Shown: piece by piece, positions 25,205 to 33,589 of the stretch | Layout: every line of letters begins with the position of its first letter | How positions within the stretch are numbered: the stretch's first letter is position 1 | Assembly: GCA_944322805.1 (NCBI GenBank) | Contig: CALUQC010000085.1 | Location: 1 to 37,450 of the forward strand | DNA length: 37,450 nt | Source: an uncultured Bacteroidales bacterium | Lineage (GTDB): Bacteria > Bacteroidota > Bacteroidia > Bacteroidales > UBA932 | Direction of reading: 5' to 3' | The notes under the pieces: generated by a model | Databases searched by the model: none | The model's input: the letters and a program-made list of their open reading frames with translations, nothing else | Told to the model about the DNA's origin: nothing | Translations under genes and position numbers: made by a program

Positions 25205-25213
25205 CACCCGAAA

Positions 25214-25260
25214 TGTGGAGAGATTTGGCTGCTTGCAACCACACAAAAAAATGCTAAAAT
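25214..25260 (+). ncRNA. SAM-II type riboswitch aptamer ahead of metK
   Basis: The stem TGTGG (25214-25218) / CCACA (25239-25243) encloses AGAGATTTGGCTGCTTGCAA. An A-rich linker and ATGCTAAAAT follow. The loop ATTTGGC can pair with GCTAAAAT to form the H-type pseudoknot, with one bulged A. The GATTT...TTGCAA core and the GCTAAAA end match the SAM-II consensus as I remember it. SAM-II senses S-adenosylmethionine and usually lowers expression of methionine/SAM genes; the next gene is SAM synthetase, which fits. The 25042-25393 gap holds this aptamer, its promoter and a terminator candidate. Confidence 0.85.
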
Positions 25261-25307
25261 GATTGTCCGGCTTTCGGGCGGACAGCGGTTTTTAGGTATC
25301 GGTTTGT

Positions 25308-29110: not shown

Positions 29111-30238
29111 TCAGGCCCCGGCTTCGGCTTCGGTTTCGGAGTTTCCGGTAAGAATCTCGTTCTGTACCTGCACGGAAGCATCATGGATGGCGTTGAAGAC
29201 AGTCGAAAGGAATTTTTCCGACAGCCCTTGTTCCTTGCCGCGCTCTATGACCTTTTCAAGCAGGGCATCCCACCGTGAAGTCTGGAGGATGGCTATGTTG
29301 TTCGTCTTCTTGTATTCCCCTATCTGGCGGCTGATATTCATTCTCGAGCCGAGCAGATACAGCAGGCTTTCGTCTATTACGTCGATTTTCGCCCTCAACT
29401 GATGGATATTCTCCTTGTATTCGGGACTGTCCGAGTCCGCTTCCCTGACAACCAGTTTGGACATCATTTCTTCCAGTTCCTTTGGAGTGAGCTGCTGCTT
29501 TGCATCGCTGAGTGCACAGGTCGGATCACAGTGGGATTCTATCATCAGCCCGTCGAGTCCCAGGTCCATCGCGGTCTGGGAAATTTCCAGAAGATATTTC
29601 TTTGCCCCTCCCATATGGCTCGGATCACAGAAAAACGGCAGTTCAGGATACCTGCTTCTGAGTTCGATGGCTATCTGCCAGTCCGGCCTGTTCCTGTACG
29701 GGATTTTTTCCGAAGTGGAGAAGCCTCGGTGAATCACGCCTAATTTCTTCACACCTGCCTGATTCAGCCTTTCCAGTGCTCCTATCCAGAGGTCAATGTC
29801 TGGATTTACCGGATTCTTTACGAGGACCGGAATATCGGTATCTTTCAGGGCGTCGGCTATTTCCTGCACCAGAAACGGATTCGCTGTAGTCCGTGCGCCT
29901 ATCCATACCATGTCCACCCCGAATTTGATGCAGTCGAATATGTGTTTTTCGCTTGCCACCTCCGTGCAGATTTTCATTCCGAGTTCATTTTTCACCCTCT
30001 GCATCCATTTCAGCCCCGGCGTACCTACGCCCTCGAATGTATTCGGATGAGTGCGCGGCTTCCATATTCCTGCACGGAATACGCTTATCCCCATGGCTTT
30101 AAGTCCCCTGGCTGTCTCCATTATCTGGATTTCCGATTCCGCACTGCATGGCCCGGCTATCAGGAACGGCCTTTTCTCATTGAACAGGTTGAACAGATTC
30201 CATTCTTTCAGCGGAATGATTTCGAGTCTTTTTTCCAT
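29111..30238 (-). CDS. aroF: DAHP synthase / chorismate mutase fusion
   Basis: Bifunctional enzyme of 375 residues. The first part (about 1-265) is a KDO8P-synthase-like (type I beta) DAHP synthase, the first step of the shikimate pathway, with AGPCSAES, GIWKPRTHP, WIGARTTANPFLVQ, IHRGFS and FCDPSHMGG. The last 100 residues are an AroQ-type chorismate mutase (LRAKIDVIDESLLYLLGSRMNISRQIGEYK). Such fusions are known in Bacteroidota, for example in Porphyromonas. It is the last gene of the pheA-aminotransferase-tyrA operon, so entry and branch-point steps are encoded together. It lies 12 bases after tyrA. The gene symbol is a convenience name. Confidence 0.95.
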   Translation of the reverse strand: MEKRLEIIPLKEWNLFNLFNEKRPFLIAGPCSAESEIQIMETARGLKAMGISVFRAGIWKPRTHPNTFEGVGTPGLKWMQRVKNELGMKICTEVASEKHIFDCIKFGVDMVWIGARTTANPFLVQEIADALKDTDIPVLVKNPVNPDIDLWIGALERLNQAGVKKLGVIHRGFSTSEKIPYRNRPDWQIAIELRSRYPELPFFCDPSHMGGAKKYLLEISQTAMDLGLDGLMIESHCDPTCALSDAKQQLTPKELEEMMSKLVVREADSDSPEYKENIHQLRAKIDVIDESLLYLLGSRMNISRQIGEYKKTNNIAILQTSRWDALLEKVIERGKEQGLSEKFLSTVFNAIHDASVQVQNEILTGNSETEAEAGA

Positions 30239-30250
30239 AACAAGTTCGTT

Positions 30251-31117
30251 TTATCTGATTATTCTTTTTATCCTGTTTGCGTCTTCTATGAGCGAGCGGA
30301 TTCCCTTTTCATCGAATTCGTCTATCGCCTTTCTGAACGCATTTATTTTTTCTATGTATGTGTCAATGACCTTCAGCAGATTGTCCCTGTTCTGGGAAAA
30401 AATCGGCACCCACATGTCCGCATTGCTTTTCGCAAGCCTGACGGTGGAAGAAAAACCTCCGGAAGCCAGGTCGAATATGTGTTTTTCGTTTTTTTCCTTG
30501 TCCAAGACCGTAAGGGCCAGTGCGAATGACGTGATATGCGAAATATGTGACACGTATGCCGTATGCACGTCGTGGCTTGAAGCATTCATGTATATCGGTC
30601 TCATGTTCAGGCAGTCGTACATCTTTTCCACAATCCTTACCGCAGCCGGACTTGACTCCTCCTGATTGCATATTATGCAGGCCCTCCCGTCGAAAAGTCC
30701 CGGCATGGCGGCCCATGGACCGGAATATTCCGTACCTGCCATAGGATGAGTGGCCACATACCTCATGCGCATCGGATGATAGTGCACCGTCCTTATCAGC
30801 TGCTCTTTCGTAGAACATGTATCGATAACGATTTTCCTGCATGAACTGCCGTTTTCCGTCTCTTTCTGGAAAATGTCCAAAATTTCAGGCAGAAGTTTGA
30901 TGGCTGCCCCTACGGGTACAGCCAATATTATCATGTCGCACGAGCCCGCACATTCTTCCAATGTCGTTATCTCGTCTACAAGTCCTATTTTCATGGCGGC
31001 CGCAGCATTCACACTGTCCGACTCTACTCCCTTCAACTTTTCCGCAAAGCCCCTTCTTTTGAGGTCTATGGCCATGGAGCCGCCGATGAGGCCCAACCCT
31101 ATTATTCCTATATTCAT
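30251..31117 (-). CDS. tyrA: Prephenate dehydrogenase
   Basis: Oxidatively decarboxylates prephenate to 4-hydroxyphenylpyruvate, the tyrosine branch. The 288-residue protein begins with a NAD(P)-binding fold, MNIGIIGLGLIGGSMAIDLKRR. The family segments IILAVPVGAAIKLLPEI, VIDTCSTKEQLI and THPMAGTEYSGP (substrate-binding His) follow. There is no ACT domain and no chorismate mutase; the mutase is fused to the neighbouring DAHP synthase. It lies 46 bases after the aminotransferase gene in the phe/tyr operon. Confidence 0.94.
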   Translation of the reverse strand: MNIGIIGLGLIGGSMAIDLKRRGFAEKLKGVESDSVNAAAAMKIGLVDEITTLEECAGSCDMIILAVPVGAAIKLLPEILDIFQKETENGSSCRKIVIDTCSTKEQLIRTVHYHPMRMRYVATHPMAGTEYSGPWAAMPGLFDGRACIICNQEESSPAAVRIVEKMYDCLNMRPIYMNASSHDVHTAYVSHISHITSFALALTVLDKEKNEKHIFDLASGGFSSTVRLAKSNADMWVPIFSQNRDNLLKVIDTYIEKINAFRKAIDEFDEKGIRSLIEDANRIKRIIR

Positions 31118-31163: not shown

Positions 31164-32384
31164 TCACATTCTCCGTATCTTCTCTGCGGCGCTTTCCAGC
31201 ACTTCCGGCCTTGCGCACAGGGAAATCCTTATATAGTCCCTGCCGTTTTTCCCGAAGATGAATCCCGGCGTGATGAACACTCCAGCCCCGTACAGAATCC
31301 TGTCCGAAATCCTCTCTCCGGGCGATTTCCCTGTCCATTCTCCTTCGGCATCGCGCTCCTGCTGCAGCAGCCTGCACTTCTGCGATACGCGCCCCCATAG
31401 AAACATTCCGCTGCTGTCCCTGTCATATTCCGCCCCCACGATATCGAAAATCTTTCCCGCGAGCACTCTGCGCCTCCTGTATTCCTCATTCAGTTTTCCG
31501 AACCATTCGGGCCCCTGTTTCAAGGCCTCTATGGCAGCCAGCTGGAGCGGCTTGAACATGCCAGAATCCATCTGGCTTTTGACCTTGAGTATCTGCGAAA
31601 TCATTTCTGCATCGCCGGCTACCATTCCGATACGCCATCCGGACATGTTGTGCGCCTTGCTGAGGGAATTCAGTTCGAGACAGCATTCCCGGGCACCTTC
31701 GGCCGCCAGAATCGACAGGGGGTTGTCGTTGAGGATGAAACTGTAAGGATTGTCATTGCAGATCAATATCCCGTGCCTCCGCCCGAAATCAGCCAGTTTC
31801 CGGTACAGTTCCCCGGTGGCCGGCGCACCCGTAGGCATGTTCGGGTAATTGGTCCACATTATTTTCACTCCGGAAAGGTCCGTCTTTTCCAACTTCTCGA
31901 AATCAGGCTGCCATCCGTTTTCCGGCACCAGGTCATAAGTGACTGTTTCCGCTTCCGCAAGGGCGGATGCCGATGAATATGTCGGGTAGCCCGGATCCGG
32001 AACGAGGACCTTGTCCCCCTTGTCTATGAACGCAAGCGAAATCAGCAGGATGCCTTCCTTGGACCCTACGAGCGGCTGGATTTCCGTAGCGGGATTCAAT
32101 TCCACATGGTAGTACCTGGCATACCAGTCGGCAAAAGCCTGCCGCAGGGCCGGTATCCCGATATAGCTCTGGTATGCGTGGTTGCCAGGCTGCGAAGCAG
32201 CTTCCTTAAGCGCCTCTATTGCCGCGGCAGGCGGCATCCCGTCCGGAGCGCCTATGCCGAGATTTATTATTCTGTCCTTGCCGTCGGCTTCCCTTTCGGC
32301 ATTCATCCTGTCGATTTCCTTCAGTTTCCTTGAAAAATAGTATTCCTGGACTGATTGTGTCCTTTTTGCCGGTTGTATTATCAT
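31164..32384 (-). CDS. Class I/II aminotransferase, probably aromatic
   Basis: PLP-dependent aminotransferase of 406 residues. NLGIGAPDG near residue 41, PGYPTYSSA at 131-139, MWTNYPNMPTGAPAT around 176-190, and the PLP-binding Lys243 in SLSKAHNMSGWRIG are typical of the fold-type I aspartate/LL-diaminopimelate group. Its place between pheA and tyrA suggests it converts phenylpyruvate and hydroxyphenylpyruvate to Phe and Tyr; substrate preference is inferred from context only. It lies 52 bases after pheA. Confidence 0.9.
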   Translation of the reverse strand: MIIQPAKRTQSVQEYYFSRKLKEIDRMNAEREADGKDRIINLGIGAPDGMPPAAAIEALKEAASQPGNHAYQSYIGIPALRQAFADWYARYYHVELNPATEIQPLVGSKEGILLISLAFIDKGDKVLVPDPGYPTYSSASALAEAETVTYDLVPENGWQPDFEKLEKTDLSGVKIMWTNYPNMPTGAPATGELYRKLADFGRRHGILICNDNPYSFILNDNPLSILAAEGARECCLELNSLSKAHNMSGWRIGMVAGDAEMISQILKVKSQMDSGMFKPLQLAAIEALKQGPEWFGKLNEEYRRRRVLAGKIFDIVGAEYDRDSSGMFLWGRVSQKCRLLQQERDAEGEWTGKSPGERISDRILYGAGVFITPGFIFGKNGRDYIRISLCARPEVLESAAEKIRRM

Positions 32385-32436: not shown

Positions 32437-33300
32437 TTACAGGGCAGCCTCGTATTCGCCGAGAATATTCAGGTCCTCCATCAGCGGCCTTACGGCTGAA
32501 ACGGCCTGGCTGTAGCGCAGATAGCTGTCGAACTTTATGTCCGCATAGAAGAAATACTGCCATGATTTCCCGGGTATGGGCAGGGACTGGATTCTCGTCA
32601 GATTCATATCGTAGAACGACAGGATAGTGAGAATCTGCGCCAGCGAGCCGGCCTTGTGAGGAAGGGTAAAGCATAGGGACACCTTGTTCACTTTTTCCTT
32701 TGGCACCATGATTCTGTCATCGAGGATCAGAAATCTCGTGAAATTCTGTTTGTAAGTCTCTATGCTTTCCTTCAGCACTTCCAGTCCGTAGAGTTTCGCT
32801 GCGAAGAGGGAAGCCACGGCACCGACGCCCATGAGTTTCTGAGAAGCCACGTCCGCCGCGCTTTTGGCCGTATCTTCGGATTCTACCAGCCTGATATGCG
32901 GATAAGACTGGAAGAAAGGGCGTGTCTGGTTGATGGCCATATAATGCGTCCTCACTTCCTTTATGTCTTCTATTTTCTGTCCGGGCAGCGCCATCAGATT
33001 CTGCTGGATGCGCAGGAAGACTTCTCCTTTTATCTTGACATTGTATTTTCTCAGAAGCTCAAAATTTGGCAGGAGACCGCCGGATACGGTATTTTCGATT
33101 GCCATTATCGCCGCATCGGCATTGCCGGTGTCCATCGCCTTGTAGAGATCGTCGAATGTGGCGCATTCCACTATTTCAGGCTCCGTGCCGTCGAATTTCT
33201 TGTAGAATACCCGGGCTGCCTCTTCATGGAAGCAGCCGGAGTAGCCCTGGATTGCCACTCTTTTGGGACTGTTGTCTGTCATATTCATGTTCCGATTCAT
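32437..33300 (-). CDS. pheA: Prephenate dehydratase
   Basis: Converts prephenate to phenylpyruvate, the phenylalanine branch. The 287-residue protein has the periplasmic-binding-like catalytic domain, starting VAIQGYSGCFHEEAA, then AIENTVSGG and the catalytic NFTRFLIL (TRF at 188-190). A C-terminal ACT domain follows (about 207-283) for feedback control; the usual ESRP segment reads IQSLP (237-241). No chorismate mutase domain is present. It is the first structural gene of the operon and lies 22 bases after an attenuator terminator. In-frame ATGs at residues 5 and 7 are alternative starts. Confidence 0.95.
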   Translation of the reverse strand: MNRNMNMTDNSPKRVAIQGYSGCFHEEAARVFYKKFDGTEPEIVECATFDDLYKAMDTGNADAAIMAIENTVSGGLLPNFELLRKYNVKIKGEVFLRIQQNLMALPGQKIEDIKEVRTHYMAINQTRPFFQSYPHIRLVESEDTAKSAADVASQKLMGVGAVASLFAAKLYGLEVLKESIETYKQNFTRFLILDDRIMVPKEKVNKVSLCFTLPHKAGSLAQILTILSFYDMNLTRIQSLPIPGKSWQYFFYADIKFDSYLRYSQAVSAVRPLMEDLNILGEYEAAL

Positions 33301-33322
33301 TTCCTTGTTAAAGTGCCGGTAT

Positions 33323-33353
33323 AAAAAAAGAGCCGCCCGCGTCCGGACAGCTC
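33323..33353 (-). terminator. Attenuator terminator of the phe/tyr operon
   Basis: On the minus strand GAGCTGTCC (33345-33353) pairs with GGGCGGCTC (33330-33338) over nine base pairs, two of them G-U, around the loop GGACGC, followed by seven T (33323-33329). It ends 22 bases before the pheA ATG and after a Tyr/Phe-rich leader peptide, so it is the conditional stop of an attenuator. Confidence 0.88.
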
Positions 33354-33435
33354 ACTATACTATTATTATATTATGGTATGCACACGTGACGTCCGGCTAT
33401 TATCCTTCTGGAAAATAGAAATAAAAATACCCGGA
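33343..33435 (-). promoter_or_regulatory. Alternative pairing regions 1, 2 and 3 of the attenuator
   Basis: On the minus strand, region 1 TCCGG (33431-33435) lies in leader codons 11-12. Region 2 CCGGACG (33390-33396) lies just after the leader stop. Region 3 TGTCCGG (33343-33349) overlaps the terminator's 5' arm and loop. Region 2 can pair with region 1 or with region 3, and region 3 pairing destroys the terminator. A ribosome stalled at Tyr/Phe codons 13-18 covers region 1 and frees region 2 for antitermination; one reaching the stop covers region 2 and lets the terminator form. Confidence 0.75.
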
Positions 33436-33465
33436 TGCGCTAAATCGTGTGTTCATGTTTTTCAT
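33400..33465 (-). CDS. Phe/Tyr-rich leader peptide of the pheA operon
   Basis: A 21-codon reading frame starting MKNMNTRFSASG and followed by YFYFYF and PEG, with tandem stops TAA TAG. Six of the last nine residues are Tyr or Phe in strict alternation (codons 13-18, 33412-33429), and a further Phe is codon 8. Its job is to report the supply of charged tRNA-Phe and tRNA-Tyr by ribosome stalling, not to make a protein. It lies between a good -7 box and the terminator ahead of pheA. Translation could also begin at the second ATG (33456), because the first is very near the predicted transcript start. Confidence 0.88.
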   Translation of the reverse strand: MKNMNTRFSASGYFYFYFPEG

Positions 33466-33476
33466 GTCTTACTTAG

Positions 33477-33484
33477 CAAATATA
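33477..33484 (-). promoter_or_regulatory. -7 box of the phe/tyr operon
   Basis: TATATTTG on the minus strand fits TAnnTTTG. The transcript would begin near 33470, only a few bases before the leader-peptide ATG (33465). I see no clear -33 box. Confidence 0.65.
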
Positions 33485-33557
33485 GTAAAAAATCTTGTAT
33501 CGGGACACATGATGAGGAAAAACTTGTACGAAAAAATCAGACATGTCTGTAAAAGAT

Positions 33558-33589
33558 GAGCCAGTCCTGATTCACACCGGGACTGGCTC
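33558..33589 (-). terminator. Hairpin downstream of the cyclophilin gene
   Basis: A perfect 10-base-pair stem GAGCCAGTCC / GGACTGGCTC with a 12-base loop. On the minus strand it is followed by ATCTTTTAC, a weak T-run, then by the small palindrome CAGACATGTCTG (33538-33549) and six T (33531-33536). It may end the cyclophilin transcript. It lies in the 33301-33703 gap, which otherwise holds the phe attenuator and the orphan promoter-like site. Confidence 0.5.

Follow-up and report, generated by a model that had tools for sequence, protein, structure and literature searches.

A probable Phe/Tyr-reading transcription attenuator ahead of the pheA operon of an uncultured Bacteroidales bacterium

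Organization of the locus

The window (the whole stretch of DNA that was analysed, 37,450 nucleotides of contig CALUQC010000085.1 from an uncultured Bacteroidales bacterium, GenBank assembly GCA_944322805.1) carries a four-gene operon on the minus strand in the order pheA–aminotransferase–tyrA–aroF/CM, with the attenuator-like element described below located ahead of pheA, the ATG of which is at 33300. The closest named relatives of its PheA, with 86-89% identity, belong to uncultured Bacteroidales and Candidatus Cryptobacteroides merdigallinarum. The features of the leader and the genes are as follows.

33477..33484, minus strand: -7-type promoter box TATATTTG, of the Bacteroidota type TAnnTTTG (sequence)
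33400..33465, minus strand: leader peptide ORF MKNMNTRFSASGYFYFYFPEG, 21 aa, ending SGYFYFYFPEG (ORF translation)
33431..33435, minus strand: segment 1, TCCGG, core of protector hairpin 1:2, which is extended by flanking pairs
33412..33429, minus strand: sensor codons Tyr-Phe-Tyr-Phe-Tyr-Phe (sequence)
33402-33400 and 33399-33397, minus strand: tandem stops TAA and TAG (sequence)
33390..33396, minus strand: segment 2, CCGGACG, beginning 3 nt past the first stop codon
33343..33349, minus strand: segment 3, TGTCCGG, with segment 2 (antiterminator) or the terminator 3' arm as partner
33323..33353, minus strand: intrinsic terminator, stem 33353-33330 (10 pairs, loop of 4) and T7 33329-33323
32437..33300, minus strand: pheA, prephenate dehydratase (PF00800, E 1.2e-49, domain residues 15-195 of 287, the remainder of the protein having no domain assignment)
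31164..32384, minus strand: class I/II aminotransferase (PF00155)
30251..31117, minus strand: tyrA, prephenate dehydrogenase (PF02153 and PF20463)
29111..30238, minus strand: aroF-type DAHP synthase fused to chorismate mutase (PF00793 and PF01817)

Judging from its gene context, the aminotransferase is probably an aromatic aminotransferase. A ten-pair hairpin found by eye at 33558-33589 is situated between a cyclophilin-type gene (34375-33704, minus strand) and the leader promoter and is probably the terminator of that gene. Elsewhere in the window, a SAM-II riboswitch (RF01726, 62.8 bits) occupies 25209-25267 on the plus strand; downstream of it a hairpin with a T run (by eye) is followed by an ORF, which from its first residues we take to be an S-adenosylmethionine synthetase.

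The leader element

The ATG of the leader ORF is 11 nt downstream of the -7 box, whose pattern TAnnTTTG is the -7 consensus of Bacteroidota, and codon 4 is a second in-frame ATG. The leader stop is 99 nt from the pheA start, with the stem and T7 in between. As expected of an attenuator, a leader ORF rich in codons for the end products thus follows soon after the promoter and an intrinsic terminator separates it from the first gene. The 161-nt leader RNA has a predicted folding energy of -44.6 kcal/mol (z = -3.07), which was equalled by one of 200 shuffles. An earlier sequence-only reading of this DNA had reported the -7 box, the 21-codon leader with its YFYFYF run and the tandem stops, all with parts and coordinates that agree with the minus-strand sequence; it had also given the hairpin nine pairs and seven T, of which the seven T stand and the pair count becomes ten.

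Conservation in relatives

Regions upstream of PheA-encoding genes were gathered from the window's family, named genomes, the order, the class and the phylum. This yielded 281 distinct loci, of which 276 were used, the other five having less than 150 nt upstream. A fixed rule was applied to call leaders (an ORF of 8-70 codons with at least five Phe/Tyr in seven, whose end is 20 nt or more ahead of pheA). By this rule, 194 of the 276 regions contain a Phe/Tyr leader and 176 contain a leader together with a terminator, compared with 57 and two, respectively, of 1380 dinucleotide shuffles (five per region, n = 276). On the reverse strand a leader was called in 16 of the 276 regions. When all 190 residue pairs were scanned over the same regions, FY ranked top with 194, followed by FL and FS with 110 each. 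The calling is mechanical: an overlapping ORF was sometimes taken (two loci) and a spaced run was missed in another.

The frequency of the element varies with relationship to the window. A leader was called at 32 of 51 loci in the family group (30 with a terminator), 144 of 156 in the order and named group (132), 17 of 33 in the class group (13) and one of 36 in the phylum group (one, with a terminator), where one leaderless class genome is counted with the phylum, so that 17/34 and 1/35 are the better readings for class and phylum. These group labels are rough, since the family group comprises the family loci and 25 named loci with 62-89% PheA identity, and the order group comprises all remaining named loci, including a few labelled Lentisphaerae, Chlorobi and Saprospiraceae.

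A survey of Bacteroidales was made with the window's family left out. The pheA gene is kept in 132 of the 294 genomes searched; 107 of these were taken (27 + 80 loci), one of which was too short, leaving 106, and the remainder were the window, three family members and 21 other PheA-matching genomes. A Phe/Tyr leader precedes pheA at 100 of the 106 loci, with a terminator as well at 94. Relatives therefore keep both the Tyr/Phe run and the terminator, the absence of either of which had been named as grounds for abandoning the attenuator proposal. Leaders occur in 46 of 47 families; in the one family without a pheA leader (three genomes) the leader sits before tyrA. Among the named carriers are Dysgonomonas sp. 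520, Natronoflexus pectinivorans, Alistipes sp. An66, uncultured Bacteroides and uncultured Parabacteroides, and all of these have a listed terminator apart from the Alistipes and one Bacteroides out of two.

The promoter box recurs with the leader. Of 171 leaders scanned (five of the 176 were dropped), 131 have an exact TAnnTTTG within the 90 nt leading up to the Phe/Tyr run, compared with 9.2 of 171 after base shuffling. In these 131 relatives, a median of 21 nt separates the -7 box from the first in-frame start. A nearly leaderless ORF as a general trait, which the 11 nt in the window had prompted, was rejected given this longer spacing in relatives.

The fixed rule left 19 of the 51 family-group loci and 16 of the 33 class-group loci with no called pheA leader. 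Five leaderless copies close to the window's family have an upstream gene that stops at most ~70 nt from the pheA start, and one near relative keeps a terminator after the upstream gene with no called leader. At the leaderless loci of the phylum group, no linked tyr/aro gene was found with the window's queries within 2-5.5 kb; the single phylum-group locus with a leader is a linked operon. Ten leaderless class-group loci do have a linked aminotransferase, and these may be without such control or may have runs that the calling rule missed. Some leaders contain Cys codons in or beside the Phe/Tyr run, for example FYCFYF, YYFC and RFCFCF.

Competing RNA structures

In the window, the three segments can pair in mutually exclusive ways. 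Without a ribosome, a transcript ending just before the terminator is predicted to form the extended 1:2 hairpin (-24.8 kcal/mol). RNA that is free only past the Phe/Tyr run and made up to segment 3 is predicted to form the long 2:3 antiterminator (-18.0 kcal/mol), and the terminator is predicted to fold (-19.4 kcal/mol) when a ribosome at the stop codon hides segment 2. With segments 2, 3 and 4 all free at equilibrium, the terminator (-21.9 kcal/mol) is preferred over the antiterminator (-18.0 kcal/mol); read-through must therefore depend on 2:3 folding first. Segment 2 starts 3 nt past the first stop codon, so from its position a terminating ribosome would be expected to cover it. Similarly, segment 1 occupies the codons just before the run, where a stalled ribosome would cover it.

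The 2:3 pairing is supported across loci. Where both leader and terminator were called (176 loci), segments 2 and 3 have a complementarity score of 19.9, compared with 12.5 after shuffling, and at 77% of these loci at most one of 30 shuffles is equally good. Replacing the terminator arms by those of other genomes lowers the score from 19.9 to 14.1 (Wilcoxon p 1.8e-30, with shared ancestry ignored), and own arms have a rank of 0.09, compared with 0.5 expected. The position of segment 2 relative to the stop codon has a median of -8 nt (5-95% range -25 to +14.5) over the same loci. The 1:2 pairing was assessed by a swap test on the base-pair probability of segment 2 pairing with the leader, own versus swapped. 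This probability is 0.97 versus 0.44 for the window leader, 0.71 versus 0.44 in the family group (n = 30), 0.61 versus 0.43 in the order group (n = 132) and 0.38 versus 0.30 elsewhere (n = 14), with an overall p of 2e-19 (shared ancestry ignored). An ungapped version of the 1:2 test is much weaker, with 15.7 versus 13.7 after shuffling. The protector pairing is thus present but weaker than 2:3; it is strong in the window and the family group and weaker farther out. In the genus alignment (14 rows of 18 sequences) segment 3 is nearly invariant, and pair covariation there is consequently uninformative among close relatives.

An antiterminator that excludes the terminator and a protector near the sensor codons are therefore both found. 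The fold energies in the window and the swap tests over 176 loci support the proposal of mutually exclusive pairing among TCCGG, CCGGACG and TGTCCGG, and the positions given by the sequence-only reading, with segment 1 directly before the run and segment 2 near the stop codon, are confirmed.

Leader codons and operon content

The strongest evidence for an attenuator is the match of the Tyr codons to the content of the operon. Only loci for which 4500-4800 nt or more of downstream sequence was available entered this comparison, the final count being 99 of 112 loci with a called leader. An operon was scored as linked if aminotransferase, tyrA, aroF or shikimate genes lie downstream, a grouping chosen after the data had been seen. 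With this grouping, at least two Tyr codons are present in the run of 86 of 90 linked leaders and none of nine solitary pheA leaders (Fisher 4e-10, ancestry ignored), the solitary leaders having 0-1 Tyr. Taken by family mean, the counts are 42 of 42 and none of five, and an earlier count gave 101 of 103 for leaders with a linked tyr/aro gene of any kind and none of five for solitary leaders. The contrast is repeated within one family (f65) and within one genus of the window's own family, where two genomes have a linked operon with Tyr in the leader and two have a solitary pheA with one Tyr. Four linked leaders have fewer than two Tyr, and in three of these (G091, G033 and G011) no tyrA was found in the operon. 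The presence of tyrA alone is a weaker predictor, with at least two Tyr in 86 of 87 leaders with tyrA and 15 of 21 without (p 0.0002, ancestry ignored); nearly all of these 15 have aroF. The codon set thus fits the operon, being Phe only, or nearly so, before solitary pheA and Phe plus Tyr with linked tyr/aro genes, which supports the suggestion of the sequence-only reading that charged tRNA-Phe or tRNA-Tyr is sensed.

In several lineages (six loci), the attenuated pheA operon also includes genes of the shikimate pathway, which from sequence features we take to be aroB-, aroD-, aroC- or aroA-like. Trp occurs in the pheA leaders of 12 of 39 loci with shikimate genes and four of 69 without (p 0.001, by locus); this association is not significant when counted by family (p 0.16).

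For genomes in which pheA stands apart, tyrA and the DAHP synthase were sought elsewhere, and 21 genomes were tabulated. Of the 18 tyrA-side stretches tabulated, 17 have their own Tyr-bearing leader and terminator. In the nine genomes with both leaders, the Tyr count is higher on the tyrA side in all nine, the smallest difference being 0 versus 1. Eight genomes have a called leader on the tyrA side only. One genome has no called leader at either pheA or tyrA, another has no tyrA match and no leader was seen in the tyrA regions of G033 and G091. Three of the eight, from another class lineage, have a tyrA-side leader with TYYY and a single Phe followed by a terminator, no aroF-like ORF within ~1.1 kb downstream of that leader and no called leader at pheA; their TYYY element is a candidate Tyr-dominated attenuator. 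One Trp is present in seven of the tyrA-side leaders.

Proposed mechanism and alternative explanations

From the anatomy of the element, its conservation, the competing pairings and the codon match, all of which are established at the level of sequence, we infer a cycle of stalling, coupling, termination and read-through. The element is, with a probability of about 0.9, a ribosome-mediated transcription attenuator through which the joint Phe/Tyr operon responds to the supply of charged tRNA-Phe and tRNA-Tyr together. When both charged tRNAs are plentiful, the ribosome would pass YFYFYF, reach the stop codon and cover segment 2; segment 3 would then pair with the terminator 3' arm and transcription would end. 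When either is scarce, the ribosome would stall in the run and cover segment 1, leaving segment 2 free, and 2:3 would pair before the 3' arm is made, which would allow read-through into pheA–aminotransferase–tyrA–aroF/CM. Without translation 1:2 would form, and consequently the terminator as well.

The same attenuator could sense Phe only, with the Tyr codons arising by chance or from a U/A-rich codon composition. Phe does outnumber Tyr in the runs (792 F and 591 Y of 1934 residues), and the known enterobacterial leader has Phe only. A bystander role for Tyr is nevertheless improbable: two or more Tyr codons separate 86 of 90 linked leaders from all nine solitary ones, and Tyr is found in the tyrA-side leaders, including the three genomes with TYYY and a single Phe before tyrA.

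Two further explanations dispense with attenuation. The leader might be translated with control exerted on pheA translation or ribosome reinitiation, the hairpin being simply a stable 5' structure. Excerpted text of one study proposes reinitiation at leader peptides, with a peak of 11-14 bp from leader stop to start codon in Bacteroidetes (PMC4833913); the 99 nt in the window, with a stem and T7 between, is far from this arrangement, and the joint recurrence of leader and terminator at 94 of 106 order loci also makes it a decidedly improbable account. Still less credible, and in our estimate barely worth retaining, is a terminator that belongs to an upstream transcript and a fortuitous Phe/Tyr ORF. 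The near relative with a similar terminator after its upstream gene and no called leader would suit it, but the window has a separate hairpin (33558-33589, by eye) behind the upstream gene, only two of 1380 shuffles combine leader and terminator, and an exact -7 box stands ahead of 131 of 171 leaders. Attenuation with joint Phe and Tyr sensing is thus the preferred reading.

On a wider scale, we lean towards regarding the element as an order-wide, re-programmable aromatic sensor, in which one architecture is kept and the codon set is rewritten upon gain or loss of operon genes: Phe only where pheA is solitary, mainly Tyr where tyrA stands alone, Phe and Tyr in joint operons, with Trp perhaps added where shikimate genes or aroF are included. 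The Phe/Tyr part of this proposal is strongly supported and the Trp part is only suggestive. Since solitary and joint operons occur in one family, and even in one genus, they constitute a natural experiment by which bivalent sensing is directly testable. The element is likely to control the Phe/Tyr operon in Bacteroidales that keep pheA, and the match suggests that leader codons may predict the product of an uncharacterized operon.

Comparison with known systems

No Rfam family matched the leader at gathering score in the window or in the loci of 12 relatives; the matches away from the leader in these sequences were a SAM-II riboswitch and a tRNA. Within 33280-33560, three models matched at E up to 1, all below gathering: sbrA, a Listeria sRNA (28.2 of 45 bits, E 0.0005), GibS (25 of 115 bits, E 0.14) and Phe_leader (RF01859, 20.6 bits compared with a gathering score of 55, E 0.31). 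The sbrA and GibS scores probably reflect likeness to a terminator hairpin. No described metabolite-binding or tRNA-binding family, such as a riboswitch or T-box, was matched in this interval.

The enterobacterial phe leader is a Phe-only leader. The pheA leader represented by RF01859 resembles the present element in having a leader peptide, competing pairings and an intrinsic terminator before pheA. It differs in that Phe and Tyr alternate here and the operon also contains tyrA and aroF/CM. The appeal of the sequence-only reading to enterobacterial phe and trp attenuators thus holds for the classical logic, and since the phe leader there is Phe-only, the window's leader is a bivalent variant of that layout.

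A cis-regulatory RNA of Bacteroidetes is already represented by Bacteroid-trp (RF01692), a trp attenuator candidate that precedes trp genes and not pheA. At gathering score this family is not matched anywhere in the window, and even E up to 1 brought no match within 33280-33560; when 41 genomes were searched at E 0.001 with stricter filters, three gave a match, and the window's own genome is not among them. Bacteroid-trp itself is listed in Weinberg 2010 (PMC2864571). Attenuation was also surveyed in 2010 by Lopatovskaya and colleagues (cited in PMC4833913), whose list may include candidates from Bacteroidetes. Excerpts of a Flavobacteriaceae study report strong clues of leader-peptide attenuation ahead of amino-acid operons and a conserved structured 5' element upstream of pheA without an Rfam hit (PMC9723704). 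That element is like the present one in phylum, gene and lack of an Rfam hit; the excerpts give no codon run, Tyr role or comparison with operon content for it. In Bacteroides thetaiotaomicron, sORFs reminiscent of leader peptides have been described, with pheA not appearing in the text of that study (PMC7366714). Our searches of the open-licence literature uncovered no account of a Phe/Tyr leader ahead of pheA in Bacteroidota.

Enterobacterial leaders can be multivalent, as in thr (Thr/Ile) and ilv (Ile/Val/Leu). The present leader resembles these in that one leader senses several amino acids for a joint pathway, and it differs from them in the amino acids, the genes and the phylum. The kind of system is therefore known, and leader peptides in Bacteroidota are partly known; the bivalent Phe/Tyr code, its order-wide extent and the match of codons to operon content were not found described in the open-licence literature. 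These bear on the known reach of leader-peptide attenuation across bacterial phyla, for which the authors of a 2010 survey stated that they knew of no demonstrated case beyond Proteobacteria and Actinobacteria (PMC2965389).
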